NCBI GenBank assembly: GCA_027083925.1
Contig: JALWMK010000164.1
Location: 1-33,730, forward strand
Reading direction: 5' to 3'
Length of the DNA stretch: 33,730 bases
Source of the DNA: Sedimenticola sp.
GTDB taxonomy: Bacteria > Pseudomonadota > Gammaproteobacteria > Chromatiales > Chromatiaceae
This document shows positions 6,881 through 30,573 of the stretch, one piece after another. Each line of letters begins with the position of its first letter. Within the stretch, counting starts at the first letter, position 1. The position numbers and the translations under genes are program-made. Under the pieces are notes generated by a model. It made no database searches and had not been told where the DNA came from. It saw only the letters and a program-made list of their open reading frames with translations.

Positions 6881-7006
6881 GGTATTCTCCTTCTGGTAAC
6901 TACAATAGTGATCGAAAAAAGCCAGCACTTCCCCACCCCTTTCGATCATAAAAAATTATGACCAGCGATTACTGGCCAGTTGTCGAGTATATAGACCTTT
7001 GTAGTG

Positions 7007-7044: not shown

Positions 7045-7080
7045 TAACAGCGCAGGATTTTGGCAGGAAATTGTCCGGCA

Positions 7081-8154
7081 ATGGCTCTTTTGATTCGACA
7101 CCATCCTTATTCCCTGCCTCTGGCATCCGCCTGGCCGGGAGCACGAAACACCAGGCTGATGCGGCGTGAAGGCTGGATCATCAGTATTCATGACAACCAA
7201 ACCATTGGTTATGGCGATTGCGCGCCACTTCCTTATGCCGGCACGGAATCCAGTGCGGCAGCGCATAAGCTGTTGCAGCAGTTTTCCCGTAGAACCTGGG
7301 TCGAACCCCAGGCATTGCTGGCGGAGCTAAAGCAGCAGCGCCAAGGCTGCCCGACCGCCTGTTATGCTCTGGAGACCGCCACCCTGGATCTGTGCAGCCG
7401 GAATGCCGGGATCCCCCTGCGCAACTATCTCAGCGGCTCTGCCAGCAAGCGGGTTCTGGTAAATGCCATGTCCGGATCAGTCTGCCGGGACAGTCTTCCG
7501 GATGCCCGGGATCAGGGATTTACCATCATCAAATTGAAAGTCGGCCAGCGCCAGTTACGGGAGGAAATAGGCTGCCTGCAGAAACTGGGGGCCGGACTGG
7601 CGCCGGAAATTCGTTTACGGCTGGATGCCAACGGCAGCTGGAACCTGGATGAAGCACGCTATTTCCTCGATGCCGCCGCCGGATTGCCCATAGAATCCCT
7701 GGAAGAACCACTACGCAGTCCCAGCCTGTCTGAATTCTCCCTGCTTCAGTCCCAAACCCTCATCACGCTGGCGCTGGATGAATCGATACAGCGGATTAAC
7801 CAGAACGAACTGCTGGCAAACCCGAACATCCGCCGTCTGGTATTGAAACCCGGCGTACTGGGCGGCCTGCAATACAGTTATTCTCTGGCAGAAAAGGCTG
7901 CCGCTGCGGGCAAGGAATGCGTGATTACCTCGCTGGTGGATTCTGCCGTGGGCGTGCATGCCGCCTGCCAGCTTGCCGCCGCTGTGGATGGGCTGTCTCC
8001 CGGGCTGGCGCACGGACTGGCAACCTCCAGCTGGCTGTGCAAAGATGTTGCCCGGCCGCCTGAAATCGAGGCGGGATATACTTCTTTACCCGACACCCCC
8101 GGACTGGGCATCGATGAAATCTTTTACGCGAATCTTTCAGGTACCTTTTCATGA
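7081..8154 (+). CDS. menC: o-Succinylbenzoate synthase (menaquinone biosynthesis)
   Basis: This is an enolase-superfamily enzyme of 357 residues that dehydrates SHCHC to o-succinylbenzoate in menaquinone synthesis. All expected catalytic elements are seen: the KxK pair (IIKLKVGQ, about 147-154), the three metal-binding acidic motifs (LRLDANGSW, ESLEEPL, LALDESI) and the second lysine (VLKPGVLGG, about 255-263). The ATG at 7081 is preferred; an in-frame TTG at 7060 would add seven residues. It is transcribed away from nosZ and overlaps menI by 41 bases. Related dipeptide epimerases share the fold, but the neighbouring menI and menE genes make MenC the best call. Confidence 0.9.
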   Translation: MALLIRHHPYSLPLASAWPGARNTRLMRREGWIISIHDNQTIGYGDCAPLPYAGTESSAAAHKLLQQFSRRTWVEPQALLAELKQQRQGCPTACYALETATLDLCSRNAGIPLRNYLSGSASKRVLVNAMSGSVCRDSLPDARDQGFTIIKLKVGQRQLREEIGCLQKLGAGLAPEIRLRLDANGSWNLDEARYFLDAAAGLPIESLEEPLRSPSLSEFSLLQSQTLITLALDESIQRINQNELLANPNIRRLVLKPGVLGGLQYSYSLAEKAAAAGKECVITSLVDSAVGVHAACQLAAAVDGLSPGLAHGLATSSWLCKDVARPPEIEAGYTSLPDTPGLGIDEIFYANLSGTFS

Positions 8155-8521
8155 GCTGGATCCCGGTGGCGTCATGTTCCATGCTCATTTGTTCAGCCAT
8201 GCCCACAATGCCTATTCCGCCCTGCTGTCAGAAGCAGGTTATTCGCTGAAAGCCATTCTCCTGGCGGGCGATCACCTGGTTCCAGTGGTGCATGCCGAGG
8301 CAGATTATCTGCATCCGCTGTTGCTGGATGACGAGGTGTGCGTCACCGTGTTTCTCACATCCGCCGGAAACACCTCCCTGAGCTTCTCCTACAAATTTCA
8401 CAAGGATGACATGCTCTGCGCCACAGCCGCCACTACCCATGTATTCCTGCGCAGGGACAGCAGGACTCCCGTGGCCATCCCGGAAAAACTGCGGCAAGGA
8501 CTTCAGGTATATTCCTCCTGA
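8114..8521 (+). CDS. menI: Hotdog-fold thioesterase, probably 1,4-dihydroxy-2-naphthoyl-CoA hydrolase
   Basis: This 135-residue protein is of the 4HBT/YbgC hotdog family. The N-terminal motif FHELDPGGVMFHAHLFSHAH carries the catalytic Asp region; VVHAEADYLHPLLLDDEV and LSFSYKFH are the typical central strands. In this setting it most likely removes CoA from DHNA-CoA in menaquinone synthesis. The frame is open further upstream, but the start at 8114 gives the normal family N-terminus, so the true gene overlaps menC by 41 bases. Its 3' end overlaps the convergent menE end by 19 bases. Another acyl-CoA substrate cannot be excluded from sequence, so the symbol rests partly on context. Confidence 0.8.
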   Translation: MKSFTRIFQVPFHELDPGGVMFHAHLFSHAHNAYSALLSEAGYSLKAILLAGDHLVPVVHAEADYLHPLLLDDEVCVTVFLTSAGNTSLSFSYKFHKDDMLCATAATTHVFLRRDSRTPVAIPEKLRQGLQVYSS

Positions 8522-9894
8522 AACAACTTCTGCACAAGCCTTTTCACCTCGGTACGCAACAGCTTTCCCATCGCATTTCGCGGTAACGCCTCTACCCTGA
8601 AAAACCGCCTGGGCAGAAAAACTCCCTGCAAATTCCTCTGCGCCCAGCCAGTCACCTGCTCGGCACTTGCCGGCCCGCAATACAGGGCGGCCAGCGCATC
8701 GCCCCATGTGACATCGGCAAAGGCGCTGACCGCAACCTGTTCCACCCCGGGGCAACGAGCCAGCGCCTGCTCCAGTAACTGTGGGTGAACATTTTCCCCG
8801 CCGCTGACGAAAACATCATCATTGCGCCCGAAGACGTACAACCGCCCCTCACTGTCCATGCACCCCAGATCCCGGGTGTTCAACCACTCTTGCTCATCCG
8901 TCAGTTTCCAGCGGCCGCCACCCATGCAGCGGGCATGGGTTGCTATGGAAGGGCCACGGACGAAAATAACATCAGTATCTTCACAGAGTTTGATTTCGAC
9001 ATGCTCCAGGGGGAGGCCGGCACAACCTGGCCGCCATCGCTGTGGCGGCGGGAACAAAGTAGCCACCTGGGAAGCGGTTTCCGTCAATCCATAGCTGGGA
9101 CAAAGAGGCCAGCCCAGTTTCAGAGCTGCCTCCACCAGTGTTGGCGTGGCGGATGCCCCGCCCAGCACTACGGCTTTCAGTGCTGCAGGCGGCCGGAAGC
9201 CACTATCAGCCTCCAGCAGGCGATGCAGCATGGCGGGCACAAGGGATAAATGACTCACCCGGCCTTTCCCCAACGCTTCCTTCAGAACCCTGGGATTGCC
9301 ACGATCCACAAGTACCGCTTTGGCTCCCCCATGGGCGCAGCGCAACAATATGCTGAGTCCACCAATGTGATGGAGGGGAAGGCAGGCCAGCCAGGTATCG
9401 CTTTTTTCAAGCTCCAAACGCTTGCAGGAAGCCAGTACGCTGGCAGCCAGGTTTCGTCCAGTGAGTTCCACGATTCGGGGCTGTCCCTGGGTGCCACTGG
9501 TCGCCAGCAGCAAACGTACAGCATCCAGCCCCAATTCCCGAGCCGGAAAGCGGCTGGCTGAGTCCTCGTTCAGCTTCTCCAGGCAGGCATCATCCACCAG
9601 CACCATGTCCGCCCGCGCCGCCTGTAGCTGCTGCCGGCGGCTATACTCGGGCAAAGCAGGATCCACAGGAAAAAAAATACAGCCCATCCTCGGCAGGGCA
9701 AACAGCAACAGAGCATTCAGCCAGCGTTGCCCACCCACACTGGCCAAAACCATGCCAGGCGCAAGCCCCATGGCCTGCAGGCGCAGACACAAGGCGTCCA
9801 GCAACTGTTCCAGCTTCTCACCGGAATAGTGTTTTTCGCGGTATTCTATACAAAAATTCCGGTTCGGCTGCGGCAACTTTTCAGGAACCATCAT
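8503..9894 (-). CDS. menE: o-Succinylbenzoate-CoA ligase (menaquinone biosynthesis)
   Basis: This is an AMP-forming acyl-CoA synthetase of 463 residues. Visible motifs are the P-loop-like LLLATSGTQGQPRIVELTGR (about 130-150), LPLHHIGGLSIL, SYGLTETASQVAT (about 268-280), the NTRDLG hinge aspartate region, GRNDDVFVSGGENVHP and the C-terminal PRNAMGKLLR with the catalytic lysine. The GGENVHP and LPLHHIGG forms are typical of MenE. It activates o-succinylbenzoate made by MenC. It runs opposite to menC-menI, 28 bases after mobB in a probable two-gene unit. At 463 residues it is of normal length. Genes menD, menF, menH, menB and menA are not in this window. Confidence 0.88.
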   Translation of the reverse strand: MMVPEKLPQPNRNFCIEYREKHYSGEKLEQLLDALCLRLQAMGLAPGMVLASVGGQRWLNALLLFALPRMGCIFFPVDPALPEYSRRQQLQAARADMVLVDDACLEKLNEDSASRFPARELGLDAVRLLLATSGTQGQPRIVELTGRNLAASVLASCKRLELEKSDTWLACLPLHHIGGLSILLRCAHGGAKAVLVDRGNPRVLKEALGKGRVSHLSLVPAMLHRLLEADSGFRPPAALKAVVLGGASATPTLVEAALKLGWPLCPSYGLTETASQVATLFPPPQRWRPGCAGLPLEHVEIKLCEDTDVIFVRGPSIATHARCMGGGRWKLTDEQEWLNTRDLGCMDSEGRLYVFGRNDDVFVSGGENVHPQLLEQALARCPGVEQVAVSAFADVTWGDALAALYCGPASAEQVTGWAQRNLQGVFLPRRFFRVEALPRNAMGKLLRTEVKRLVQKLFQEEYT

Positions 9895-9922: not shown

Positions 9923-10450
9923 TCAGGCAGGATTCAGCCAAGACAATACAAAATCGGATATTTCCCCGGGCTGGCTCAGTGCCAGCAAGGGAACCGGCAC
10001 TTCCTGGCTCGGGCGCCGATCAACCGCCACCGCTATCACCTGGTCATCTTCCAGGCAAAGCAGCGGCTTGCCCAAAGACGGCCGGTGGATCTCGATCTTG
10101 GGTATGGGCTCGTCCCGAAAACCTTCCACCAGCACCAGATCCAGCCCCCTGGTATCCAGTCGCGTCAGCAATTCCGCCAGGTCAGGCTCTGTTTCACCAT
10201 CCCCCTCCCGGATCCAGGCACTACGATATTTTGACGCCAGCAGGATTTGACCTGCTCCCGCCTTGCGCAAACGGTCGCTGTCCTTGCCCGGCTTGTCCAT
10301 TTCAAAATCATGATGGGAATGCTTGATCAAAGCCAGCTTCAGGCCCGAACCCCTGAGCAGCGGGATCAGTTGCTCAAGCAGCGTGGTCTTGCCACTACCG
10401 GAAAAAGCGGCGAAACCCAACACGGACAAGGAAAAATCTGATAGATTCAT
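9923..10450 (-). CDS. mobB: Molybdopterin-guanine dinucleotide biosynthesis protein B
   Basis: This is a 175-residue P-loop GTPase. The Walker A motif is at about 12-22 (GFAAFSGSGKTTLLEQ), followed by the family signature KHSHHDFEMDKPGKDSDRLR (about 43-62) and LDLVLVEGFRDEPIPKIEIHR (DLVLVEGF, about 105-112). MobB helps MobA attach GMP to molybdopterin, making the bis-MGD cofactor used by enzymes such as the NasA-like protein encoded further right. It lies just upstream of menE with no obvious promoter between; the co-transcription with a menaquinone gene has no known biochemical reason beyond supplying anaerobic metabolism. Confidence 0.92.
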   Translation of the reverse strand: MNLSDFSLSVLGFAAFSGSGKTTLLEQLIPLLRGSGLKLALIKHSHHDFEMDKPGKDSDRLRKAGAGQILLASKYRSAWIREGDGETEPDLAELLTRLDTRGLDLVLVEGFRDEPIPKIEIHRPSLGKPLLCLEDDQVIAVAVDRRPSQEVPVPLLALSQPGEISDFVLSWLNPA

Positions 10451-17753: not shown

Positions 17754-19643
17754 TTACCCGGTAAAGATACGCCTGAACTGGCCCATCTTATCCTTCAGAC
17801 TGGTTTGCCGAATGGTTTGCAGTAATTCACTCAGTTTGAATTCATGATGGCGCTCATAGGCCACGCCCAGTTGGGGCATTTCCGCCAGCCCGCTCTCCCG
17901 GGCATGTTCCGCGAAACCTTTGTTCTTCCAGAAGAAAGCGCCGGGCATGGTGGTGGGAACAACCAGGACGTAGAACATGGCGCGGCCGAGCGCGGCGCTG
18001 CCCAGGGCCAACAGCGTCAGCAGACCAAAGGTTGCCGGTCCGGTCAGGCCCAGGCCGGCCATGGCCAAAGCCAGAACCACGCCAATCGACAGCAAGGCAT
18101 TCCGCAGCCAGTAGGAATAGCCAAAGGCAGTGCCTTGCTCATAGAAAGATACTGCCGCTTCGCTTTCGCTGTGACCGAGGTTGCGGTAGTGAAACAGCAA
18201 CCCCATGCCTTCCAGGAACATGCCCACCGCAGCCACGGCCGCCAGCATCCTCCCCTGATCCATGCTCAGGGAACCGAAAACCAACGCCATGACCGCCAGC
18301 AACAATGACCCCAGGGTCAGGCCGGCGCCGATGAAAGCCGCTGCCGTATGCCAGTGATCCCAGTAGGGACGCGCCGGGATCCGGTAGAGCTTGTACATGT
18401 AGTATCCACCATACCCCAAGCCAAGCAGACCCGCTGCCGCCAGCAGGTTTGCCGGCACTTCCGCCCAACCAGCATCGAACAGGCTGAACAAGGTGTAACC
18501 CGTCAAGCCGATGAAGAACAGGGTCACGCCAGCAATCTCCCGGCTCACCGGGGACATGCGCAGATTGTAGAAGCCGCGATAGAAGCGATGAGGCTTGCCC
18601 AGGTGCATGTTGAGCTTGAGCATGCCAAAACCCAGCAGGATCACCATCAAAACCAGCGCGGGAACGAGCGCCGCGCTTTGCCGGTAATCCGCCAGAGGCG
18701 CAACACCAAACCAGCTCCCCAGCACCAGCAGGGCAAAGGCCCCCATCACCGCCTGGGCGCTGAGAGTGAAGGCGACATGGGCATTCTCATGGGAACCCAG
18801 CAGTTTCTTCAGGTTCCACTGGCGTTTGAAACCTGGCTTGGGATCCAGCACCGGCTTGAACTTTCCTTCCCTGTCGTCCTGGTGATATTTCAGGGGCATG
18901 CTGTCTACCCGCTTCATGTCTCGCGGCAGGGTGCGCTTCTGCTGGAAGCGGATATTGGGATGGGTGATATCCGTGCGTGGGAAACCGGGAATTCCGGTCT
19001 TGGCCTGCTCCCGTCCTGCGGGGATATTTTCGATCACGCCAAATTCCAGGGCCTTGCCCAGGCAGGCAGATACGCAGGCAGGTTTGAGGCCTACTTCCAG
19101 GCGATCCACGCACATATTGCACTTGCTCACCTGGCCCTTCACCGGATCGAGCTGGGGTGCATTGTAGGGGCAGACCCAGGTGCAATAGCCACAGCCGAAA
19201 CAGATCTCCGGATCCTGCAGCACCGCGCCGTATTCGGCAAACTTGGTATAGGCCCGGGTGGGACAGCCCTTGAGGCAGACCGGGTTATCACAATGGTTGC
19301 AGGCCATGGAGATGTTGATGCGCCGGTAGTCCGGATAGCTGCCGCCCTCCACGAAGCCCACGGAACGGAAGGCCAGGTGCGCCGGGTTGTCGTTTTTCTC
19401 GGAACAGGCCGCCTCACAGGCATGACAGGCGATGCAGTTGTCCGCCGTAAAGAAGAAGCCATGCTGCTTGTAGCGGTTGGGGTTGATCCGTTCCTGGGGT
19501 TCGTCGTTGATGACGAAATCATCCTGCCGCCGGGGATCATTCCGGGGCACTGTTTCGACAGGCTTGCCGTAGCGGTTCACCAGTTGGGTTTCCGGGTCAT
19601 TCAGCAGGGCATACTCGGGTTCGTTCTCTCTTCTCGGAAACAT
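17754..19643 (-). CDS. DmsB-DmsC fusion: four-cluster ferredoxin plus membrane anchor of the nitrate reductase
   Basis: The N-terminal third is a DmsB-type ferredoxin with four cysteine groups: CIACHACEAAC near 71-81, CNHCDNPVCLKGC near 115-127, CFGCGYCTWVC near 148-158 and CNMCVDRL...CVSAC near 174-194. From about residue 295 it continues as a DmsC-like anchor with about eight hydrophobic helices (e.g. AVMGAFALLVLGSWFGV, ALVLMVILLGFGMLKLNMHLG). DmsC-type subunits oxidise menaquinol, so this protein probably wires the quinone pool to the NasA-like enzyme encoded upstream. GAGAAG lies seven bases before 19643, so that start is preferred over one 30 bases further out. The final tail (about 570-629) is soluble and probably cytoplasmic. 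Confidence 0.85.
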   Translation of the reverse strand: MFPRRENEPEYALLNDPETQLVNRYGKPVETVPRNDPRRQDDFVINDEPQERINPNRYKQHGFFFTADNCIACHACEAACSEKNDNPAHLAFRSVGFVEGGSYPDYRRINISMACNHCDNPVCLKGCPTRAYTKFAEYGAVLQDPEICFGCGYCTWVCPYNAPQLDPVKGQVSKCNMCVDRLEVGLKPACVSACLGKALEFGVIENIPAGREQAKTGIPGFPRTDITHPNIRFQQKRTLPRDMKRVDSMPLKYHQDDREGKFKPVLDPKPGFKRQWNLKKLLGSHENAHVAFTLSAQAVMGAFALLVLGSWFGVAPLADYRQSAALVPALVLMVILLGFGMLKLNMHLGKPHRFYRGFYNLRMSPVSREIAGVTLFFIGLTGYTLFSLFDAGWAEVPANLLAAAGLLGLGYGGYYMYKLYRIPARPYWDHWHTAAAFIGAGLTLGSLLLAVMALVFGSLSMDQGRMLAAVAAVGMFLEGMGLLFHYRNLGHSESEAAVSFYEQGTAFGYSYWLRNALLSIGVVLALAMAGLGLTGPATFGLLTLLALGSAALGRAMFYVLVVPTTMPGAFFWKNKGFAEHARESGLAEMPQLGVAYERHHEFKLSELLQTIRQTSLKDKMGQFRRIFTG

Positions 19644-19694
19644 GATTTTCTTCTCACGGGCCTGGCCCGGCATATTCGATATTCTTTACAAAAT

Positions 19695-19714
19695 CCTGAA
19701 TCCGTGGATTCAGG
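19695..19714. repeat. Palindromic repeat CCTGAATCCGTGGATTCAGG
   Basis: This is a perfect 9-bp inverted repeat with a 2-base centre, in the gap between the NasA-like and DmsBC-type genes. The same sequence is at 29249-29270 and a variant at 17598-17619. All three are intergenic. Confidence 0.85.
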
Positions 19715-19723
19715 AAAATTCCA

Positions 19724-19783
19724 TGTTGGGCACGTGATGCTTTGCCCAACCTGCAGGTCGGGCAAAGCGCAGCGCGCCCGACA
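19724..19783. repeat. REP-like extended dyad after nasA
   Basis: A core dyad at 19739-19768 pairs GCTTTGCCC with GGGCAAAGC around CCTGCAGG. An outer arm TGTTGGGC (19724-19731) pairs with GCCCGACA (19776-19783) with one G-T pair. Its GGGCAAAGCGCAGCGCGCCCGAC part resembles the REP-type intergenic repeats common in gammaproteobacteria. A degenerate relative may lie near 23040. It begins a few bases after the nasA stop codon and could act as a 3' stabiliser. Confidence 0.65.
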
Positions 19784-19789
19784 CCCGGT

Positions 19790-21994
19790 TCAGAACTTGC
19801 GCATTTCCATGCTCAAGCGCGCGGCTTCCTTCTGATCCGCGATCTTTTCAATCCGCACCGCCGACTGCTTGTATGCCGGTTGACGGGAATGGGGGTCGAG
19901 CAGCCCCAGGGTCAGGCGGTTGGCGCAGTCATGGAAATGAAACGGCAGGAACACCATATTCTTCGGCACCCTTGCCGTGGGTTGGGCCATGGCGATTGCA
20001 TCCGAACGGCGTGATACCAGGCGCACATACTCGCCACGCTGAATTTTCAGCTCCGCACACAGATCCGGGTTGATCTCGATGAAGGGAATGGGGCTGTACT
20101 TGTTGTTGTTGCCAATCTTTCCCGTTTTGGTGCGCCCGTGCCAGTGTTCAATAAGCCGCCCGGTGTTGAGCCACACGGGAAATTTTTCATCAGGCACTTC
20201 ATTGTTGTCGATGAACGGCAGGGGAATCAGTTTGGCCCTGCCATCCTCATGGCGGAAGCTCGCGGTTTCAGTATAAAGACGTTTGCCTCCCCTCGGCGGT
20301 GGCTGGCCACTGTTCTTTTCATCTTTGGTATAGGGCCACTGTATGCCCCGGCTCTTTTCAATCAGTTCGTGATTCATGCCGGAGATGTCGGAAAGACGGC
20401 CCCGGGACAGCTCCGCCATTTCCAGGAAGATGTCTGCCGCCTTTTCCGGAAACTTCACCTTGCCTTCCTTGTTGAAGCGTTCGGCCATGCGATTGAAGAT
20501 CCACAGATCCGGTTTGGCCTGGCCTGGCGGCGTGGCGATGGGTTTGACCACATTGATGCGCCGCTCGGTGTTGGTCATCACCCCATCCTTCTCCGCCCAG
20601 GTGCCGGCTGGCAGGTAGACATGGGCATACTGGGCGCTTTCCGTATCCTCATAGCAGTCCTGCACGGCGCAGAACTCCAGTTTTTCCATGGCCTTGCGGA
20701 TGCGCGCCGTATTGGGCAGGGAGGACATGGGATTGGTGGCGATAAGCCACAACCCCTTGATCTGGCCGGATTCGATGGCGTGGTAGATATCCGTCTGGAA
20801 CATGCCACGCTTCTTGGGGAAGAACTCCACATCGATGTTCCAGAACTTTGCGATCTCTTCCCGATGCTCGGAAACCTCCAGGAAACGGTAGTTGGGCAGG
20901 CCGGAGCAGGACGACCATTCCCGGGTGCCCATGGCGTTGCATTGGCCAGTGATGGACAAACTGGTGCCGCCGGGCTTGCCGATGTTGCCGGTGATCAGAG
21001 CCAGGTTGTTGATGCCCACCACGCCGTCAGAACCATGGGTGGACTGATTGATGCCCATGGTCCAGATCTGCATGGACACCCCGGCATTGGCAAAGCGCCT
21101 TGCCACATGGCGGATACTGTCCTCGTCGATGCCGCAGATCTTCGCCGCCGTAGTGGGATCGTATTTCTCCACCTCGGCTTTCAATGCCTCGAAGCCATTG
21201 GTGTTGGCGTCAATATAGACTTGATCCTGCAGGCCTTCCTTGATGATGACGTGCATGAAGGCGTTTTGCAGCACCACGTCCGTACCCGGCGTAATGGGCA
21301 GATGGATATCGGCATTCTGCGCCAGCATGGTGACCCTGGGATCGACGACGATGAGGGGAAAGCCTTTCTTCTCCTGGGCTTCCTTCAAGCGCCAGTAGAT
21401 GATGGGGTGCTGCTCCGGCAGGTTGGAGCCCCAGGCAATGAGCAGATCCGTATGCTCGAAATCCTCGTAACAGCCCGGCGGGCCGTCGGAGCCGAAGGAG
21501 CGTTTGTAGCCGGACACGGCGGACGCCATGCACAAGGTGGTGTTGCCGTCGTAGTTGTTGGTGCCGACAAGGCCGCGGGTGAGCTTGCCCAGGGTGTAGA
21601 ACTCCTCGGTGAGCATCTGCCCGGTGGAAATGATGGCGAAGGAATCCCGGCCATATTTTTCCTGGATGCGGCGGATCTCGTCGTGGATCTTGTCCAGGGC
21701 GCTATCCCAGTCGGTTTCGCACCAGTCATCGTGCCAGCGCTCTCGCATCCTGGGCACGGTACCCCGCCCGGCGGAATCGAACAGCTCATGCTCAAAGATG
21801 CCCTTGAGACACAGCTTGCCCCGGTTCACGTCCGCATCAGCCACACCCCGGGAAGATACCGCCTCGCCCTCCGGGTTCAGGCCGACTTCAATGGAACAGC
21901 CAGTGGAGCAGTAACCGCATGTTGCGTATTTCCACTCCACCACATTCTTGTCGGCTATCTTTACCGGATTCTTCTTGCTTCGTCCGAATAACAT
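19790..21994 (-). CDS. nasA: NasA-like molybdopterin nitrate reductase, catalytic subunit
   Basis: This is a 734-residue Mo-bis-MGD oxidoreductase. An N-terminal 4Fe-4S cluster motif is seen at about 26-62 (CGYCSTGC, then the fourth cysteine in GKLCLKG). The cysteine in TTLCMASAVSGYKRSFGSDG (about 153) fits the molybdenum ligand of the assimilatory NasA/Nap-type group, and the C-terminal MopB-type domain includes VWLNTGRLIEHWHGRTKTGK. There is no twin-arginine signal, so it is cytoplasmic. NirB, NirD and a nitrate transporter in the same locus support nitrate assimilation. Unlike usual NasA (about 850-900 residues) it lacks the extra C-terminal BFD-type cluster domain, and the downstream gene supplies a DmsB-DmsC electron input instead. 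Confidence 0.85.
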   Translation of the reverse strand: MLFGRSKKNPVKIADKNVVEWKYATCGYCSTGCSIEVGLNPEGEAVSSRGVADADVNRGKLCLKGIFEHELFDSAGRGTVPRMRERWHDDWCETDWDSALDKIHDEIRRIQEKYGRDSFAIISTGQMLTEEFYTLGKLTRGLVGTNNYDGNTTLCMASAVSGYKRSFGSDGPPGCYEDFEHTDLLIAWGSNLPEQHPIIYWRLKEAQEKKGFPLIVVDPRVTMLAQNADIHLPITPGTDVVLQNAFMHVIIKEGLQDQVYIDANTNGFEALKAEVEKYDPTTAAKICGIDEDSIRHVARRFANAGVSMQIWTMGINQSTHGSDGVVGINNLALITGNIGKPGGTSLSITGQCNAMGTREWSSCSGLPNYRFLEVSEHREEIAKFWNIDVEFFPKKRGMFQTDIYHAIESGQIKGLWLIATNPMSSLPNTARIRKAMEKLEFCAVQDCYEDTESAQYAHVYLPAGTWAEKDGVMTNTERRINVVKPIATPPGQAKPDLWIFNRMAERFNKEGKVKFPEKAADIFLEMAELSRGRLSDISGMNHELIEKSRGIQWPYTKDEKNSGQPPPRGGKRLYTETASFRHEDGRAKLIPLPFIDNNEVPDEKFPVWLNTGRLIEHWHGRTKTGKIGNNNKYSPIPFIEINPDLCAELKIQRGEYVRLVSRRSDAIAMAQPTARVPKNMVFLPFHFHDCANRLTLGLLDPHSRQPAYKQSAVRIEKIADQKEAARLSMEMRKF

Positions 21995-22070: not shown

Positions 22071-22511
22071 TCAAACCAGGCTCTGGTGAAAAATTGCCTT
22101 GTGAATATCACCCAGGCTCAACATGCCTACCAGTTTGTCGCCTTCTGCCACGGGAATGCGGCGGAAACGGTTGTTAGCCATAATGATCGCCGCCCTTAAC
22201 ACCGGCATATCCGGTGATACAGTCTTGGCGCCATGAGTCATCAGGTCTGCAACCTTGCCACTCATAAGGGACTTGTACTCCCCGACCTTTTTCTTCAAAT
22301 CGATGGTTGCCATGTTCTCCATGGCGTCTTCCACGCTGGGAAACAGCTGCGCCAGCACATCCTTTTCGGCGATAAAGCCGATGATCTTTTCGCCTTCCAC
22401 CACCGGCAGTCCGCTAAAGCGGTACAGGCACATCAGGGAGGCTACTTCCTGAACCGGGGTATCTTTGGTGACGCTGCGTGCGCCTTTGGTCATGATGTCT
22501 TGTACAAGCAT
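22071..22511 (-). CDS. Two-CBS-domain protein inside the nitrate assimilation operon
   Basis: This small protein of 146 residues is made almost entirely of a CBS pair: VQDIMTKGARSVTKDTPVQE (about 3-60) and VADLMTHGAKTVSPDMPVLR (about 87-140), each with the end phrase of the family (GFIAEKDVL, GMLSLGDIH). CBS pairs bind adenine nucleotides and report energy state. It sits between nirD and nasA with normal spacing and a GAGGAG ribosome-binding site, so it is co-expressed with both. A role in tuning nitrate or nitrite reductase activity is an inference from position; no partner is known. Confidence 0.85.
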   Translation of the reverse strand: MLVQDIMTKGARSVTKDTPVQEVASLMCLYRFSGLPVVEGEKIIGFIAEKDVLAQLFPSVEDAMENMATIDLKKKVGEYKSLMSGKVADLMTHGAKTVSPDMPVLRAAIIMANNRFRRIPVAEGDKLVGMLSLGDIHKAIFHQSLV

Positions 22512-22610: not shown

Positions 22611-22919
22611 CTACAATTGAATATACACCATACCGTCTTCAACTTTTGCGGCATAGGTATTGGTACAGCCATCGTCCGGTGCCAGGGCTTCCCCGGATTC
22701 CAGGTTGATCTTCCAGTTGTGCAGGGGGCAGGTTACCGTGTGGCCAGCCACGATGCCCTGGGACAAGGGACCCTGTTGGTGGGGGCAGGCATCGCGCACG
22801 GCAAACACCTGATCATCACTGGTGCGAAACACGGCGATACTGCCGTCTTCCACCTCCACCACTCGCGAGCCCTGACGGGGAATATCTCCCAGGGGGGCAA
22901 TCTTTTTCCAATCACTCAT
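22611..22919 (-). CDS. nirD: Nitrite reductase small subunit, Rieske type
   Basis: This 102-residue Rieske-fold protein pairs with NirB. Unlike the E. coli NirD it keeps all four cluster ligands: CPHQQG near 45 and CPLHNW near 64. It could therefore bind a real [2Fe-2S] cluster and transfer electrons. It is encoded downstream of nirB after a gap of about 160 bases that contains a degenerate REP-like sequence, and directly upstream of the CBS gene. The start codon gives the usual NirD N-terminus (DWKKIAPLGDIPRQGSRVV). An alternative, a general Rieske ferredoxin, is unlikely given the nirB neighbour. Confidence 0.9.
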   Translation of the reverse strand: MSDWKKIAPLGDIPRQGSRVVEVEDGSIAVFRTSDDQVFAVRDACPHQQGPLSQGIVAGHTVTCPLHNWKINLESGEALAPDDGCTNTYAAKVEDGMVYIQL

Positions 22920-23083: not shown

Positions 23084-25519
23084 TCAGGCTGTGATTTTCA
23101 GGGGGGTGAATTCATGGGCTGCCTCACCTTCGGCACGTGCTTTCCAGGGATCAACCTGGGCGACCTCCTGACCAACCCTGAAGCGCTCAGACAATGCCTT
23201 GCGCCCGACTTCGTCTTCCAGGATGCGTTGCTTGATATACGACAAACCCACCCGCTCTACCCATGGAGCGGTACGCTCCAGATAGTGGGCTTCTTCCCGG
23301 TACATCTGGGTGAAGGCGCCGCAGTATTCCAGCACTTCTGCTTCCGTATCCACCTTGCACAACAGATCGGTGACGCGCACCTTGATGCCACCATTGCCAC
23401 CGATGTGCAGCTCGTAGCCGGATTCTACACAGACCACGCCGAAATCCTTGATGGTGGCTTCCGCACAGTTGCGCGGGCAACCAGACACGGCCAGCTTGAA
23501 TTTGTGGGGCATCCAGGAACCCCAGGTGAGCTCTTCCAGCTTCACCCCCAGGCCAGTGGAGTTCTGGGTACCAAACCGACACCAAGTCTTGCCAGCACAG
23601 GTTTTTACGGTGCGCATGGCCTTGCCATAGGCATGACCGGAAACAAAACCGGCATCGGTAAGATCTTTCCACATGGGCGGCAAGTCTTCTTTCTTTACAC
23701 CAAACAAGTCAATACGCTGCCCGCCGGTAACCTTCATTTCCGGCACATCGTACTTGTCGCAAACATCGGCAATGGCGCGCAGATCGGATGGCGTACACAA
23801 GCCGCCGAACATGCGCGGCACCACGGAGTAAGTGCCGTCTTTCTGGATATTACCGTGGGCGCGCTCATTGATGAAGCGCGACTGGGCATCATCCTGGTAT
23901 TCTTCCGGCCAGCGTGCCAGCAAGTAATAGTTGAGGGCAGGGCGGCAGGTGGCGCAGCCGTCGGGGGTCTTCCACTCCAGGCGCTCAAACACTGCGGGCA
24001 TGTCCTTGAGTTCGTGCTCCGCAATGGCCGCAATCACGTCGTCATGGGAGTGCCCGCTGCAGCCACATACGGGCTTCTTGCTGGGCTTGGCATCATAACC
24101 CTCCCCCACGGTGCTGGAGAGAATGGCCTCCACCAGTCCGGTGCAGGAACCACAGGAGGCAGACGCCTTGGTGTGGGCGCGCACATCATCCAAGGTGAAC
24201 AGGCCCTTGGTCTGGATGGCGTTGACGATATCGCCCTTGGTGACACCGTTGCAGCCGCAAATCTCCGCATCATCGGACAGCGCCGCCACTCTGATTTCAT
24301 CACCGTGGCCGGCATCGCCCAGGTCATGCTGACCAAACAGGATGGTGCTACGGAAGCCGGAAATATCCGTGCCTTCGCGCAGAAGTTGGAAGTACCAGGT
24401 GCCGTCCATGGTATCGCCGAACATGACCGCACCCTTGATGCGGCTGTCCTTCACCACCAGTTTCTTGTAAACATTCTGTGCCGGATCCTGAAGAATCAGG
24501 GTTTCATCACCTTCTTCCTCATTGAATTCCCCGGCGGAGAACAAGTCAATGCCGGTTACCTTGAGCTTGGTGGAAGTCACCGAACCCTCATAGCGGGCGA
24601 TGCCCATTTTCGCCAGATGGTTGGCAGCCACCCTGGCTTGCTCAAACAGGGGTGCCACCAGGCCGTAGCACTGATCACGGTGCTGTACGCATTCACCCAC
24701 AGCATAGATACGCGGGTCATAGGTCTGCATGGTGTCATCCACCACCACACCACGATCGCAATGCAGGCCTGCCTTCTGCGCCAGCCCGATGCTGGGGCGG
24801 ATACCCACAGCCATAACCACCAGATCCGCTTCGATCTCCTCGCCATTGACAAAGCGCAGGCCGGTAACATGATCCTCACCCAGCACTTCTGCAGTCTGGG
24901 TTCCCATGAGAAATTTCAGGCCTTTCTCTTCCAGGGATGTCTTCAGCATTTCCGCGGCAAGCTTGTCCAGCTGGCGCTCCATGAGAATGTCCATGAGATG
25001 CACCACGGTGACATCCATGCCGTTGCGCTGCAGGCCATTGGCTGCTTCCAGACCCAGCAGGCCGCCACCGATGACTACAGCTTTCCTGCCTGTCCTGGCT
25101 GCTTCCAGCATGGCATCCACGTCAGCAATATCACGAAAACCGATGACGCCCGGCAGACCGGAACCTGGTACGGGAATGATGAAGGGGTCGGAGCCTGTGG
25201 CCAGCAATAAGCGATCGTAGGATATTTCCAGGCCGGACTCGGCCACCACCTTGCGCTTCACCCGGTCGATCTCCACTACCGGGTCGCCGGTGTGCAGGAT
25301 CACACCGTTCTCCTCATACCAGGCGCGGTCATTGAGAATGATATCATCGATGGTCTTTTCACCAGCCAATACCGGTGACAACATGATGCGGTTGTAATTG
25401 GGGTAAGGTTCTGCGCCAAACACGGTGATGTCGTACTGTTCTGGTGCAAGCTTGAGCAGCTCTTCCAGGGTACGCACGCCCGCCATGCCGTTTCCTACCA
25501 GTACCAGATGTTCTTTCAT
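23084..25519 (-). CDS. nirB: Assimilatory NADH-dependent nitrite reductase, large subunit
   Basis: The enzyme reduces nitrite to ammonium in the cytoplasm. From the start at 25519 (AGAGGAAACTC just upstream) it is 811 residues: an FAD/NAD(P)H module (LVLVGNGMAGVRTLEELL at about 4-21; AVVIGGGLLGLEAANGL at about 146-162), two BFD-type [2Fe-2S] regions (CGCNGV...CGSC and CGCSG...CATC), and the siroheme/4Fe-4S half with CAGKTWC near 640 and CPRNC near 680. It is the first gene of a five-gene minus-strand operon running nirB, nirD, CBS, nasA, DmsBC. A sigma-54 promoter lies 50 bases before the start. The length is normal for NirB, and no frameshift is seen. Confidence 0.95.
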   Translation of the reverse strand: MKEHLVLVGNGMAGVRTLEELLKLAPEQYDITVFGAEPYPNYNRIMLSPVLAGEKTIDDIILNDRAWYEENGVILHTGDPVVEIDRVKRKVVAESGLEISYDRLLLATGSDPFIIPVPGSGLPGVIGFRDIADVDAMLEAARTGRKAVVIGGGLLGLEAANGLQRNGMDVTVVHLMDILMERQLDKLAAEMLKTSLEEKGLKFLMGTQTAEVLGEDHVTGLRFVNGEEIEADLVVMAVGIRPSIGLAQKAGLHCDRGVVVDDTMQTYDPRIYAVGECVQHRDQCYGLVAPLFEQARVAANHLAKMGIARYEGSVTSTKLKVTGIDLFSAGEFNEEEGDETLILQDPAQNVYKKLVVKDSRIKGAVMFGDTMDGTWYFQLLREGTDISGFRSTILFGQHDLGDAGHGDEIRVAALSDDAEICGCNGVTKGDIVNAIQTKGLFTLDDVRAHTKASASCGSCTGLVEAILSSTVGEGYDAKPSKKPVCGCSGHSHDDVIAAIAEHELKDMPAVFERLEWKTPDGCATCRPALNYYLLARWPEEYQDDAQSRFINERAHGNIQKDGTYSVVPRMFGGLCTPSDLRAIADVCDKYDVPEMKVTGGQRIDLFGVKKEDLPPMWKDLTDAGFVSGHAYGKAMRTVKTCAGKTWCRFGTQNSTGLGVKLEELTWGSWMPHKFKLAVSGCPRNCAEATIKDFGVVCVESGYELHIGGNGGIKVRVTDLLCKVDTEAEVLEYCGAFTQMYREEAHYLERTAPWVERVGLSYIKQRILEDEVGRKALSERFRVGQEVAQVDPWKARAEGEAAHEFTPLKITA

Positions 25520-25568
25520 GAGTTTCCTCTGCTTCAGGATCTTCTGCATACGCAATTCCCACTACAGA

Positions 25569-25584
25569 AGCAATTACCTTGCCA
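25569..25584 (-). promoter_or_regulatory. Sigma-54 promoter of the nirB operon
   Basis: On the minus strand TGGCAAGGTAATTGCT fits the RpoN consensus TGGCACG-N4-TTGCW with one main change and correct GG-N10-GC spacing. The start site would be near 25558, about 39 bases before the nirB ATG. Confidence 0.82.
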
Positions 25585-25812
25585 ACATTGACAAGCAACT
25601 GATTTATCGTGACTTTTTTCGGGGCTGTTTCTGCTCGAAGGAAAGCGGGCTATATCTCCGGCCTGCGCCCGCACCAGTTTGGTGCCTCCTCGGAAACGGC
25701 ATGCGCGATTATGTATCAAAATAGATTTATGCACTTCCTGTGCGGTTAATTTGTATATAAATATACCCACACTGAAAGTAGATATACCTTATATATTGGG
25801 CCGGTTTTTTTC
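25585..25812. other. Centre of the nirB-narK divergent control region
   Basis: The gene-free stretch 25520-25866 holds two opposed sigma-54 promoters and one NtrC box, each listed separately. The sequence near 25740-25800 is AT-rich (TATATAAATATACC, TATATATTG), possibly an IHF bend region. No small gene is evident. Confidence 0.6.
25671..25685. promoter_or_regulatory. NtrC-type enhancer box between nirB and narK
   Basis: GCACCAGTTTGGTGC is a perfect 6-bp dyad matching the core of the NtrC consensus TGCACCA-N3-TGGTGCA. Its centre is about 120 bases upstream of the nirB start site and about 160 upstream of the narK start site, normal enhancer distances for sigma-54 promoters. One box could serve both directions. 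Confidence 0.8.
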
Positions 25813-25828
25813 TGGCATGGCACTTGCA
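25813..25828 (+). promoter_or_regulatory. Sigma-54 promoter of the nitrate transporter gene
   Basis: TGGCATGGCACTTGCA matches the RpoN consensus TGGCACG-N4-TTGCW, with GG and GC exactly ten bases apart. Start site near 25839, then GGAGG at 25853-25857 nine bases before the ATG. Confidence 0.87.
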
Positions 25829-25866: not shown

Positions 25867-27333
25867 ATGTCAGAAACGAAACTCAATCTGCTTGCGTTCA
25901 GTGGCAAAACCAGAACCCTGCATCTTACCTGGTTTGCCTTCTTCATCAGCTTCATGGTGTGGTTCAGCCATGCACCTTTGCTGGCAGCCATACAGGAGAC
26001 ATTCAGCCTGAGCCAGCAGGAAGTAAAGGCATTGCTCATCGTCAACGTGGCGCTGACCATACCGGCGCGCATCATAATCGGCATGCTGGTGGACAAATAT
26101 GGCCCACGATTGATTTTCTCCGGATTGCTGTTTATTTCCAGCATTATCTGCTTCTTCTTCGCCATGGCGGATTCCTACGAAATGCTGCTGGCCACCCGCT
26201 TCGCCCTGGGCTTCGTGGGCGCGGGCTTCGTCATCGGCATCCGCATGATCGGCGAGTGGTTCCCTGCCAGGCAGGTAGGCTTGGCCGAAGGCATCTACGG
26301 AGGTTGGGGCAACTTCGGCTCCGCCGCTGCTGCCATGCTGCTGCCCACGCTGGCCCTGATGTACGGGGGCGAGAGCGGCTGGCGCTATGCCATCGCCACC
26401 ACTGGCGCCATCGCCCTGGTGTACTCCTTCGTGTACTTCAAGCTAGCACGCAACACGCCCAAAGGCTCCACTTACTTCAAGCCGAAGAAGACCGGCGCCA
26501 TGGAAGTGACCAGCAAGGGGGACTTCTTCTTCTACCTGCTGATGAACATCCCTATGTATGCAGCCCTGGCTGTGCTGGCCTGGAAGCTGAGTCCTTCCAA
26601 TCTGGGCATCATCGGCACCGTGGCCACTGACAGCATTTATGTGGGATTGATCGCACTCTATATCTATCAAACCTCACAGGTATGGCGCATCAACAAGCAT
26701 ATATTCAAGGAAGAAGTACCGGAAATACACCGCTACAAGTTCAAGCAGGTGGCCATACTGGATATCGCCTATTTCGTGACCTTCGGCTCCGAGCTGGCGG
26801 TAGTTTCCATGCTACCCCTGTTTTTCAAGGAGACTTTCGACCTGTCCCTGGTGCAGGCGGGCCTGCTGGCCTCGGGGTTTGCCTTCATGAATCTGGTCGC
26901 CCGCCCTTTTGGTGGTCTGTTCAGTGACAAGTTCGGGCGCAGGAAGATGCTCTCCATCCTCATCGGTGGCCTGACTGTGGGTTATCTGGTATTGGGGCAA
27001 GTTGATTCTGGATGGCCCCTGGCTCTTGCGGTCATCGCCACCATGGCCTGCTCATTCTTCGTGCAGGCCGGCGAAGGCGCAGTATTCGCCATCGTACCTC
27101 TGGTGAAGCGCCGCATGACGGGGCAGATAGCTGGCATGGCGGGCGCCTATGGAAATATCGGGGCGGTCACCTTCCTTACGGTATTCTCCTTTGTTTCACC
27201 GCAGATGTTCTTCATGGTCATTGCGGGCGCTGCCCTGGTGGCATTGGCTGCCGTCCAGTTCCTGGATGAACCCAAGGGCCATACCGCCGAGGTGATGGAA
27301 GATGGTACGGTACAGATGATCAAGGTAGACTGA
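25867..27333 (+). CDS. narK: Nitrate/nitrite transporter of the NarK family (MFS)
   Basis: This 488-residue major facilitator protein has about 12 hydrophobic helices, a cytoplasmic N-terminus and a soluble tail. The conserved nitrate-signature glycine region [17 protein letters not shown] is near 140-156, and the second-half equivalent [15 protein letters not shown] near 422-436. The loop after TM2 contains [10 protein letters not shown], and [13 protein letters not shown] is the matching motif in the second half. It imports nitrate for the reductases encoded divergently. The position and the NtrC/sigma-54 promoter favour an assimilatory role (the NasA transporter sense) over respiratory nitrate exchange. 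The PP2C-kinase gene follows after 44 bases. Confidence 0.92.
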
Positions 27334-27377: not shown

Positions 27378-29081
27378 ATGACCAATACGCTGGAAATCGA
27401 CTACGCCGTCGTCTCGGAAAAAGGCGCCAAGGAAGAAAACGCTGATGCGGCAGATGCTCTGGTGCCCACTGGGAGCGCCCTGCTGAACAAGGGCATCGCT
27501 GCGGCCGTTTGTGATGGCATGAGCAGCTCGGAAGGAGGTGTGATCGCCGCCCAGACTTGTGTGCGCAGCTTCATGGACGACTACTTCAGCACCCCCGATT
27601 CCTGGACAGTAAAGCACTCGGCAACCAAGGTACTGGGGGCACTGAACCGCTGGCTCTGGTCTCAGGGGCAGGTGCGCTATGACTCCGCCAGAGGCATGGT
27701 CACCACTTTCACCGGCCTGATCATCAAATCCACCACTGCCCACATTTTTCATGTGGGAGACTCCCGCCTGTATTTATTCCGCGACGGTGAACTGGAACAG
27801 CTCACCAACGATCACCGCGTATGGATATCCAAAGACCAGGATTTTCTCTCCCGAGCCATGGGCATCGACGCCCACATTGACATCGACTACCGTTCCCTGG
27901 CGGTGGAACCCGGCGATATTTTCCTTTTTACCACCGACGGGGTTAGCGGCTACCTTACCGACAATCGCCTGCGCCAGCAGCTGCGTGAACATGACGGGCA
28001 GCTGCAGGCCAGCGCCGCCAGCATCATGGAAGAGGCCCTGCGCAATGGCAGCCATGACAATGTCACCTGTCAGCTGCTGAAGATCCTCCAGCTGCCGCAA
28101 AAAACCGAAGACGATATCCTGCAAAAGATCACCGAGCTGCCATTTCCACCTCCAATGCATGCGGGGGTAAAAATAGACACCTATAAGATTTTACGCGCCC
28201 TGCATGCTTCCAGCCGCAGCGAGGTATTTCTGGCCAGGGATATGGAGAGTGGCCACAGGGTTATCCTGAAAACCCCTTCGGAAAACTTCCGTGATGATCC
28301 TGCCTTTCTGGAGGGATTTCTGCATGAGGAATGGGTAGGCAAGCGCATCAGCAACCCCCATGTACTCAAGCTGCTGGAAGTACCCCGGCGGCGCTTTCTG
28401 TACAACATCGCCGAGTATGTTGAGGGTCAATCCCTGCGGCAATGGATCAATGATCACCCCCAGACCCACATCAACACCGCCCGGGAATACCTGACGCAAA
28501 TCGCCGACGGCCTGCGCGCCTTTCACCGGCTGGAAATGATCCACCTGGATCTAAAGCCGGAAAACATCATTATCGACAAGGACGGAGAACTGAAGATTAT
28601 CGATTTTGGCTCCACTCGTGTTGCCGGAGCCATTGAAATGCACTCCAGCTACGCCAGCGATACGCCCCAGACCACCGTGGACTATGGCGCCCCGGAATGC
28701 CTCAAGGGACAGTACAGCAACCGCGCCGACATATACTCCCTGGGTGTCATCGCCTACGAACTGCTCACTGGCGCCCTGCCCTATGGCGAACACGACAAGC
28801 CCGTATCCGCCAACAGACTGCGCTACACGCCAGCTGCCCGGCACAACCCCAATATCCAGCCCTGGGTAGATGGCGCCTTGCGCAAGGCCTTGCACCCAGA
28901 TCCGTCAAGACGTTATGACACCCTGTCAGAATTTCTCTACGACTTGTCCTATCCCAATCCAAAGTTCATGCAAAATACCAGTCAGCCGCTGATGAAACGC
29001 AACCCTCTTGGATTCTGGAAAGGATTGTCAGCACTGTTGCTGCTTGCAAATCTGGCGCTGCTGTACCTGTTAAGCCGCTGA
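27378..29081 (+). CDS. PP2C phosphatase-Ser/Thr protein kinase fusion, membrane-tethered
   Basis: This 567-residue fusion has a PP2C domain at about 5-235 (ENAD near 20-24, AVCDGMSSSEGG near 49-60, HVGDSRLYLFRDGELEQLTNDH, FTTDGVSGY, SHDNVTCQLL) and a protein kinase at about 265-530 (VILKTP lysine near 296, HLDLKPENIII catalytic loop near 390-400, IDFGS, APECLKG). A C-terminal hydrophobic helix follows (about 545-565, ALLLLANLALLYLLSR). Phosphatase and kinase residues both look intact. Similar fusions are found next to nitrate transporters of nas loci in other proteobacteria, so it may control transport or reduction of nitrate by phosphorylation; its target is unknown. Probably in one transcript with narK. 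Confidence 0.9.
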   Translation: MTNTLEIDYAVVSEKGAKEENADAADALVPTGSALLNKGIAAAVCDGMSSSEGGVIAAQTCVRSFMDDYFSTPDSWTVKHSATKVLGALNRWLWSQGQVRYDSARGMVTTFTGLIIKSTTAHIFHVGDSRLYLFRDGELEQLTNDHRVWISKDQDFLSRAMGIDAHIDIDYRSLAVEPGDIFLFTTDGVSGYLTDNRLRQQLREHDGQLQASAASIMEEALRNGSHDNVTCQLLKILQLPQKTEDDILQKITELPFPPPMHAGVKIDTYKILRALHASSRSEVFLARDMESGHRVILKTPSENFRDDPAFLEGFLHEEWVGKRISNPHVLKLLEVPRRRFLYNIAEYVEGQSLRQWINDHPQTHINTAREYLTQIADGLRAFHRLEMIHLDLKPENIIIDKDGELKIIDFGSTRVAGAIEMHSSYASDTPQTTVDYGAPECLKGQYSNRADIYSLGVIAYELLTGALPYGEHDKPVSANRLRYTPAARHNPNIQPWVDGALRKALHPDPSRRYDTLSEFLYDLSYPNPKFMQNTSQPLMKRNPLGFWKGLSALLLLANLALLYLLSR

Positions 29082-29391: not shown

Positions 29392-30573
29392 ATGCCAATT
29401 GTCAATATGAAAGACATGCTCCACCATGCCTATGATCATGGTTATGCGGTTGGCGCATTTGATCTGGTAAGCCTGGATTTTCTGCAGGGCATTCTGGATG
29501 CCGCGGAGCGGGCACAGGCGCCTGTTATCCTGAGTCTGGCGGAATCCCATTTCGATGCCTTTGATTTCGCGCTGCTAATGCCTGCGGTGGAAGCGGCTGC
29601 AATACGGGCCACTGTGCCGGTAGCGATACATCTTGATCATGGCGCCAGCTTTGAATCGGCAGTGAAGGCTATCAACCTCGGCTGCAACGCGGTGATGGTG
29701 GACGCTTCCGAAAAGCCCTTGCAAGACAATACCGCCATCACCAGTACGCTGACGGAAATGGCCCATGGCTGCGGCATTCCGGTAGAAGGCGAACTGGGAT
29801 ATGTGCCCGGTGAGGAAGGTGAAGATGCCGAACGGCACCCTGGTAAGATATGCTACACCACGGTAGCGGAAGCTCAGGCTTATGTAGAAAGTACCGGGGT
29901 GGATTTTCTCGCTGTTTCCATCGGCACCATACATGGTCGCATGCGGGGAAAACCCGAACTGGATTATCAACGCCTGCAGCAGATTAACGAAGCAGTGGGC
30001 ATACCACTGGTTATCCATGGCGGCACCGGCCTTTCCGATGACCAGTTTCAACAGCTGATCAGCAATGGTGTATCAAAAATAAACTACTACACTGCCCTGT
30101 CGGACGCCGCCGCAAGGCAGATCGCCCAGAACAGCGCCACCTCTGCAAATAGCGGCTATACCGGGTTAGTGAAAAACCTGCGTGGCGTGATTGGCGCTGA
30201 AACAGAGCGCTGTATACGGCTGTGGGGGGGGGCAGGCCGTGCCGAAGAGGTATTGGCGCGATGCCGGCCATGGACAGCCGTGGAACATTTGATCGTCTAC
30301 AATGTTGAAGGCCTGGATTCCATCGGCGCAAAAAACATGATGGCCGAGGGCCGGCGGGTGCTTTCCGCCATCCCCGGAGTGCGCGAAGTGTTTACCGGAG
30401 AGGCCATGAAAGAAGATGACAAATATCGCTACACCTGGCTGGTGCGCTTCTGCCATCCATCGGTAATCGACAGCTACCGGGAACATCCTTCCCATGTTGC
30501 CTTTGCCGACAATCATTTCCGCCCGGTTGCAGGGGAGCGCATCAGCATCGACTATCTTGCCATTGAAAACTGA
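29392..30573 (+). CDS. Class II (metal-dependent) aldolase fused to a Dabb-like domain
   Basis: This 393-residue protein has an N-terminal domain (about 1-285) of the FbaA/GatY class II ketose-bisphosphate aldolase fold. It keeps the catalytic and metal-binding motifs HLDHGASFESAVKAI (about 80-95), VEGELGYVPGEEG, IGTIHGRMRGKPELD (about 179-193) and VIHGGTGLSDDQF. Instead of ending there, it continues through about 100 residues (VEHLIVYNVEGL...GVREVFTGEAMKEDDKYRYTWLVRFCHPSVIDSYREHPSHVAFADNHF, shown here only in part) that look like a stress-responsive alpha/beta-barrel (Dabb) domain. The aldol substrate is uncertain: fructose- or tagatose-bisphosphate or another phosphosugar. A GAGGTAA ribosome-binding site supports the start. 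The neighbours do not point to a pathway. Confidence 0.85.
   Translation: MPIVNMKDMLHHAYDHGYAVGAFDLVSLDFLQGILDAAERAQAPVILSLAESHFDAFDFALLMPAVEAAAIRATVPVAIHLDHGASFESAVKAINLGCNAVMVDASEKPLQDNTAITSTLTEMAHGCGIPVEGELGYVPGEEGEDAERHPGKICYTTVAEAQAYVESTGVDFLAVSIGTIHGRMRGKPELDYQRLQQINEAVGIPLVIHGGTGLSDDQFQQLISNGVSKINYYTALSDAAARQIAQNSATSANSGYTGLVKNLRGVIGAETERCIRLWGGAGRAEEVLARCRPWTAVEHLIVYNVEGLDSIGAKNMMAEGRRVLSAIPGVREVFTGEAMKEDDKYRYTWLVRFCHPSVIDSYREHPSHVAFADNHFRPVAGERISIDYLAIEN

Follow-up and report, generated by a model that had tools for sequence, protein, structure and literature searches.

Two consecutive minus-strand genes, here named NAS and FUS, probably encode a membrane-tethered, cytoplasm-facing and quinol-driven assimilatory nitrate reductase that operates electroneutrally and is controlled by NtrC and sigma-54. 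They were identified in a stretch of 33,730 nucleotides from Sedimenticola sp. (assembly GCA_027083925.1, contig JALWMK010000164.1, positions 1 to 33,730 of the forward strand), which is referred to as the window and represents contig C164 of a 2.58 Mb genome. NAS (19790..21994) is an open reading frame of 734 amino acids. Based on Pfam and NCBIfam matches, PDB alignments, active-site columns and trees, it is predicted to be a cytoplasmic catalytic subunit with a molybdenum bis-pyranopterin guanine dinucleotide cofactor (Mo-bisPGD). FUS (17754..19673) is an open reading frame of 639 amino acids, in which a DmsB-type ferredoxin (residues ~70-217, 16 cysteines) is fused to an eight-helix DmsC/NrfD anchor (~293-575). 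Both genes belong to a minus-strand cluster with the order nirB-nirD-CBS-NAS-FUS, which is divergent from narK. The nearest relative locus, from a metagenome-assembled genome of Sedimenticola sp., shares this gene order and encodes proteins that are 93-100% identical.

In each of the 64 relative loci whose upstream sequence was long enough, NAS is positioned directly upstream of FUS, which shows that the pairing goes beyond chance. Among 398 evenly drawn Pseudomonadota, the six genomes harboring NAS (at least 67% identity) are the same six that harbor FUS. The next NasA homologues in this set share at most 41% identity and occur in genomes without FUS. NirB is encoded in all six genomes, in two of them not beside NAS. 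The pair is common in Gammaproteobacteria: in 369 evenly sampled genomes NAS was found in 61, FUS in 60 and both in 59, with NAS alone in two and FUS alone in one (59 of 62 carriers thus have both). The two genes are adjacent on the same strand in 57 of the 59 genomes. Two of the three unpaired cases (G574 and G657) sit at contig ends, and in a further genome (G573) both genes are present, both at contig ends. The first-pass annotation, made from the DNA letters of the window, had proposed a survey for the fusion beside nirBD. In addition to the co-occurrence described above, nirB was located upstream of NAS in 38 and nirD in 27 of 49 assessable relatives. The list of relatives comprises the 80 best loci. 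It includes sulfur oxidizers and animal symbionts (Sedimenticola, Thiotrichaceae, tubeworm and Solemya symbionts, Thiobacillus), methanotrophs (Methylomonas, including Methylomonas methanica, L051, as well as Methylobacter, Methyloglobulus and Crenothrix), and also Gallionellaceae, Cycloclasticus, Azohydromonas and Caldimonas. This gives the impression of an enrichment in organisms that feed in their electrons at the level of quinone.

FUS was analyzed for its potential to oxidize quinol and to transfer electrons. The protein contains the Pfam domains Fer4_11 and DmsC. Its cysteines C80/83/86/90, C125/128/133/137, C158/161/164/168 and C185/188/200/204 are invariant in 32 aligned members and would be enough for four [4Fe-4S] clusters. 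FUS scores 157 bits against the DmsB model TIGR02951, below the equivalog cut-off of 214, whereas the anchor exceeds the cut-off of PF04976 (56 versus 22 bits) and is predicted to form eight helices. The fusion of a four-cluster ferredoxin to a DmsC-like anchor of about eight helices, as originally annotated, is thereby confirmed. Within the anchor, H357, S374 and E379 align with H65, S82 and E87 of E. coli DmsC and are likewise invariant in the 32 members. According to a review of NrfD-like proteins, equivalents of DmsC H65 and S82 are quinone-site positions, replacement of H65 blocks quinol oxidation, mutational evidence gives E87 a role in quinol coordination, and the serine is present in all compared quinone-reactive NrfD-like subunits (PMC8076601). 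The predicted anchor structure matches ActC of alternative complex III (Z 22.6, 3.0 Å over 283 residues) and menaquinone-bound PsrC (Z 17.4). Together, the three conserved residues, the NrfD/PsrC fold, the near-obligate pairing and the absence of a C-terminal [2Fe-2S] domain from NAS argue for quinol as electron donor, as had been suggested from the first reading of the window; at the level of sequence and predicted structure, this part of the suggestion holds. The genome encodes MenD and UbiG, and the donor could be menaquinol or ubiquinol.

The orientation of FUS was deduced from its loop charges. On average, 22.5 lysine and arginine residues per protein are located in the termini and even loops, but only 0.8 in the odd loops. 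By the positive-inside rule, the ferredoxin domain and the C-terminus would therefore be placed in the cytoplasm. This is the side required by NAS, as the twin-arginine motif is absent from the first 60 residues in all 65 family members, which confirms the initial observation that NAS has no such signal. The same orientation, inverted relative to DmsC, is expected for SoeC in the review of NrfD-like proteins (PMC8076601).

NAS contains the Pfam domains Molybdop_Fe4S4, Molybdopterin and Molydop_binding. C26, C29, C33 and C62 are the ligands of a [4Fe-4S] cluster, and C155, which is followed by M156, is the molybdenum ligand. R358 aligns with R354 of Desulfovibrio desulfuricans NapA. C155, M156 and R358 are invariant in NAS and, like K64, identical to the residues of conventional NasA and NapA. 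Formate dehydrogenases, in contrast, harbor a histidine or glutamine after the molybdenum-binding cysteine and a cysteine or serine at the position of R358. This indicates that NAS is of the nitrate reductase type. The closest relative of NAS in the PDB by sequence is D. desulfuricans NapA, which also ranks near the top in Foldseek, where the predicted structure of NAS is of mediocre quality (mean predicted local distance difference test score, pLDDT, of 70). NAS remains below every curated NCBIfam cut-off. The highest score was obtained with Fdh-alpha (TIGR01591; 545 bits, cut-off 666), followed by NasC (NF047855; 469, cut-off 1100), haloarchaeal NasA (NF041323; 467, cut-off 1000), the NapA family model (380, cut-off 931) and dmsA_ynfE (132, cut-off 778); for NapA and dmsA_ynfE, the missing twin-arginine motif is a further difference.

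Two trees, with 48 and 51 proteins and rooted on formate dehydrogenases, show NAS as one separate clade (SH-aLRT support, a Shimodaira-Hasegawa-like likelihood ratio test, of 100 in both). Its sister group consists of NapA and conventional NasA together, and the node uniting these two has a support of 91-94. Both trees were calculated without Bacillus NasC, cyanobacterial NarB and the broken NasA locus of a Klebsiella plasmid, and the second also without a long-branch Deinococcus sequence.

A C-terminal [2Fe-2S] domain (Fer2_BFD) was detected by Pfam in all three conventional NasA proteins that were scanned but not in NAS. NAS might nevertheless be a soluble enzyme that receives electrons from NirB and NirD (from NADH via the Rieske protein, similar to NasB-NasG-NasC of Paracoccus) or from ferredoxin, while FUS is a mere tether or has another function. 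The frequent position of nirB and nirD upstream of NAS is in line with this, as conventional NasA systems often adjoin nirBD. However, conventional NasA occurs beside nirBD without FUS and with the [2Fe-2S] domain that NAS lacks, whereas FUS accompanies NAS almost obligatorily and shows no variation in its three quinone-site residues or in the 16 cysteines for the clusters. Moreover, genome G410 retains FUS at another locus even though nirBD stays with NAS. Thus, a soluble NAS is unlikely, and electron supply from quinol via FUS is preferred.

The assimilatory role of the quinol-driven enzyme is well supported by the neighboring genes and their regulatory sites. Upstream of NAS are genes for the small subunit of assimilatory nitrite reductase (nirD, a Rieske protein; 22611..22919, minus strand; TIGR02378, 106 bits, cut-off 75) and for the large subunit of NAD(P)H nitrite reductase (nirB; 23084..25555, minus strand; TIGR02374, 953 bits, cut-off 578). 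A NarK-family nitrate/nitrite transporter (25867..27333, plus strand; TIGR00886, 340 bits, cut-off 312) is encoded divergently from nirB. All three assignments of the first-pass annotation thus lie above the family cut-offs. A sigma-54 promoter-like site of the -24/-12 type, TGGCATGGCACTTGCA (25813..25828, plus strand), matches the pattern perfectly upstream of narK. A second pattern match, TGGCAAGGTAATTGCT (25569..25584, minus strand), precedes nirB, whose start is, in view of the position of this box, likely the ATG at 25519. An NtrC-like palindrome, CGCACCAGTTTGGTGCC (25670..25686, no strand assigned), is located between both promoters. Upstream of nirB, a sigma-54 box occurs in 21 of 37 relatives compared to 0.5% of random 300-bp stretches from the same loci, and an NtrC-like box in 16 of 37 compared to 2.7%; upstream of narK, a sigma-54 box is present in 13 of 19 relatives. 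The relatives in these counts are not independent, yet the elements are retained where the spacers differ. Taken together with the lack of a twin-arginine motif, this agrees with the assimilatory and cytoplasmic role that had been assigned to NAS at the outset.

It is considerably less probable that NAS-FUS is a dissimilatory enzyme, i.e. a respiratory or redox-balancing quinol:nitrate reductase that delivers nitrite for ammonification by NirBD. DmsABC-type modules are respiratory and NirBD can act in ammonification, which would be compatible with such a function. It is contradicted by the sigma-54 and NtrC-like sites, by the presence of a genuine periplasmic NapA, encoded by a separate gene on contig C80, and by the predicted position of the quinol and nitrate sites on the same side of the membrane, which would conserve no energy at this step. 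The respiratory NarG was not found in the genome.

It is highly improbable that NAS-FUS turns over another substrate and acts as a dimethyl sulfoxide (DMSO) reductase or other S- or N-oxide reductase, as a formate dehydrogenase or as a sulfite dehydrogenase similar to SoeABC: FUS is related to DmsB and DmsC, NAS fits Fdh-alpha slightly better than NasC (both below the cut-off) and dmsABC has been reported in a Solemya symbiont (PMC4287430), but the active site of NAS is of the nitrate reductase type, the neighborhood consists of nitrate and nitrite genes, the NAS gene of this symbiont reaches only 121 bits against the DmsA family (cut-off 778), and the Sedimenticola genome possesses a separate SoeABC-like set. 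DMSO reductase was rejected because neither the scores of the catalytic family nor the active-site residues fit, formate dehydrogenase because of the Cys-Met pair and R358 despite the top score, and SoeABC because the corresponding set is located apart, on contig C116.

Several observations weigh against a quinol-driven assimilatory nitrate reductase. NAS lies outside both the conventional NasA clade and the NapA clade. The designation as NasA-like therefore holds for C155, M156 and R358 but not for conventional NasA descent, and of the nitrate reductase grouping to be tested by a tree only the sister position to NapA and NasA was recovered. Every aligned NAS contains a threonine two positions before the molybdenum-binding cysteine (T153), a site occupied by arginine in all NasA, NapA and formate dehydrogenases sampled, and a cysteine at position 352, where NasA has a proline or serine; because of these two residues, an altered chemistry of NAS is possible. 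W360 is a further residue specific for NAS. The Fe-S half of the FUS model is unreliable (pLDDT below 50), in contrast to the anchor, which was modelled well. FUS was not found beside NAS in genome G673, and in G410 (L175, L176) NAS and nirBD are located on one contig and FUS on another. Finally, the sigma-54 box was not seen upstream of nirB in 16 of the 37 relatives, among them the majority of loci that have the divergent, methanotroph-type NirB.

In the proposed mechanism, nitrate would be imported via NarK. In the DmsC-like half of FUS, quinol would bind close to the cytoplasmic side at H357, S374 and E379. Its two electrons would travel through the DmsB-like half via the four [4Fe-4S] clusters, continue to the [4Fe-4S] cluster of NAS and finally reach the Mo-bisPGD on C155, where nitrate would be reduced to nitrite. 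With NAD(P)H as reductant, NirBD would then convert nitrite to ammonium. When nitrogen is limiting, NtrC and sigma-54 may activate the operon. As the quinol site and the nitrate site would share the cytoplasmic side, protons would be released from quinol and taken up for nitrate reduction on the same side, making the step electroneutral and generating no direct proton-motive force. The energy coupling considered in the first-pass annotation is thus unlikely at the nitrate step, and the likely gain would be the sparing of NAD(P)H, which is costly where electrons enter at the quinone level. On balance, a scenario is favored in which the Cys-ligated nitrate reductases include, besides NapA and conventional NasA, a third deep lineage that gained a fused quinol:ferredoxin module. 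This would have given rise to a widespread quinol:nitrate oxidoreductase that works electroneutrally and is dedicated to nitrogen assimilation, which would spare chemolithotrophs and methanotrophs the cost of NADH from reverse electron flow for the first two electrons.

The assimilatory nitrate reductases described in textbooks obtain their electrons from NAD(P)H, ferredoxin or flavodoxin. NasA, NasC and NarB resemble NAS as cytoplasmic Mo-bisPGD enzymes encoded near nirBD and a nitrate transporter and share the [4Fe-4S], Cys-Met and Arg residues. They differ in their low identity (at most 41%) and separate clade, whereas NAS lacks the BFD domain, has the DmsB-DmsC fusion as partner and carries T153, C352 and W360. 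NapA shows a nitrate-type active site and a similar fold, but is periplasmic, interacts with NapB/NapC or NapGH and forms a separate clade. SoeABC shares with NAS-FUS a cytoplasm-facing catalytic subunit, an inverted DmsC-like anchor and the quinone-site motif HLG...S..E, but has another catalytic subunit, works in the opposite direction (quinone reduction) and keeps B and C separate. E. coli DmsABC corresponds to FUS in its four-cluster DmsB and its eight-helix DmsC with H65, S82 and E87. It differs in the opposite membrane orientation, the periplasmic DmsA exported via the twin-arginine pathway and the unfused B and C subunits, and the catalytic subunits are only 22-25% identical.

In the literature searched, which did not cover most subscription journals, no description of a DmsC/NrfD-linked or quinol-linked assimilatory nitrate reductase was found. 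Wells et al. 2020 stated that canonical four-cluster and anchor subunits occur in no member of the clade of NasA, NapA, AioA and cytoplasmic formate dehydrogenases, and built an evolutionary argument on it (PMC7331816). NAS-FUS contradicts this statement. For the Solemya velum symbiont, no assimilatory nitrate reductase but dmsABC was reported (PMC4287430). However, the gill symbiont of this host (L073) carries nirB-nirD-NAS-FUS, and its best match to the DmsA family is the NAS gene itself. Hence it is plausible that NAS-FUS is what was called dmsABC, and the annotation would be corrected insofar as a genome said to lack assimilatory nitrate reductase (PMC4287430) contains the pair together with nirBD. 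Judged from the conserved quinol site of the membrane partner, the electrons for nitrate assimilation in many sulfur- and methane-oxidizing bacteria probably come from the respiratory quinol pool and not from NADH or ferredoxin. If confirmed, this would change how electrons are accounted for when sulfur oxidizers, animal symbionts and methanotrophs assimilate nitrate.

Further features were located within the cluster and its surroundings. A protein with two CBS domains, which was not mentioned in the first-pass annotation, is encoded between nirD and NAS (22071..22511, minus strand); only 4 of the 49 relatives that could be assessed have such a gene upstream of NAS. Between NAS and FUS, a perfect 9-bp hairpin is followed by TTTTG (19694..19715, minus strand) and might act as a partial terminator or control the NAS:FUS ratio. 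The true start of FUS is probably at 19643 and not at 19673, as most relatives begin at FUS residue 11. Directly upstream of NAS, one relative locus (L178, G657:C162) contains another NasA-like gene, which shares 34% identity with NAS. In two others, a small gene of an unknown family (122-144 amino acids; L160, 11357-11791, and L161, 11106-11474) is located directly 3' of FUS, and nirB is not beside NAS there.

Next to narK, the window encodes a fusion of a PP2C phosphatase and a Ser/Thr kinase (27378-29081, plus strand), which stays near narK in several relatives (among them L017, L025, L030 and L046). A nitrous oxide reductase with nos_propeller and cupredoxin domains is encoded at 4568-6949 (minus strand). 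Downstream of it is a gene for a fusion of a NapC/NirT cytochrome with a cytochrome c domain (2857-4050, minus strand). The presence of nitrous oxide reductase here and of NapA elsewhere in the genome suggests partial denitrification. Genes for menaquinone and molybdopterin-guanine-dinucleotide synthesis are also found near the locus, namely a MenC-like gene (7060-8154, plus strand), an AMP-binding enzyme that is possibly MenE (8503-9894, minus strand) and MobB (9923-10450, minus strand). The gene at 29392-30573 (plus strand) encodes a class II fructose-bisphosphate aldolase whose C-terminal domain is of the Dabb type (stress-responsive A/B barrel).

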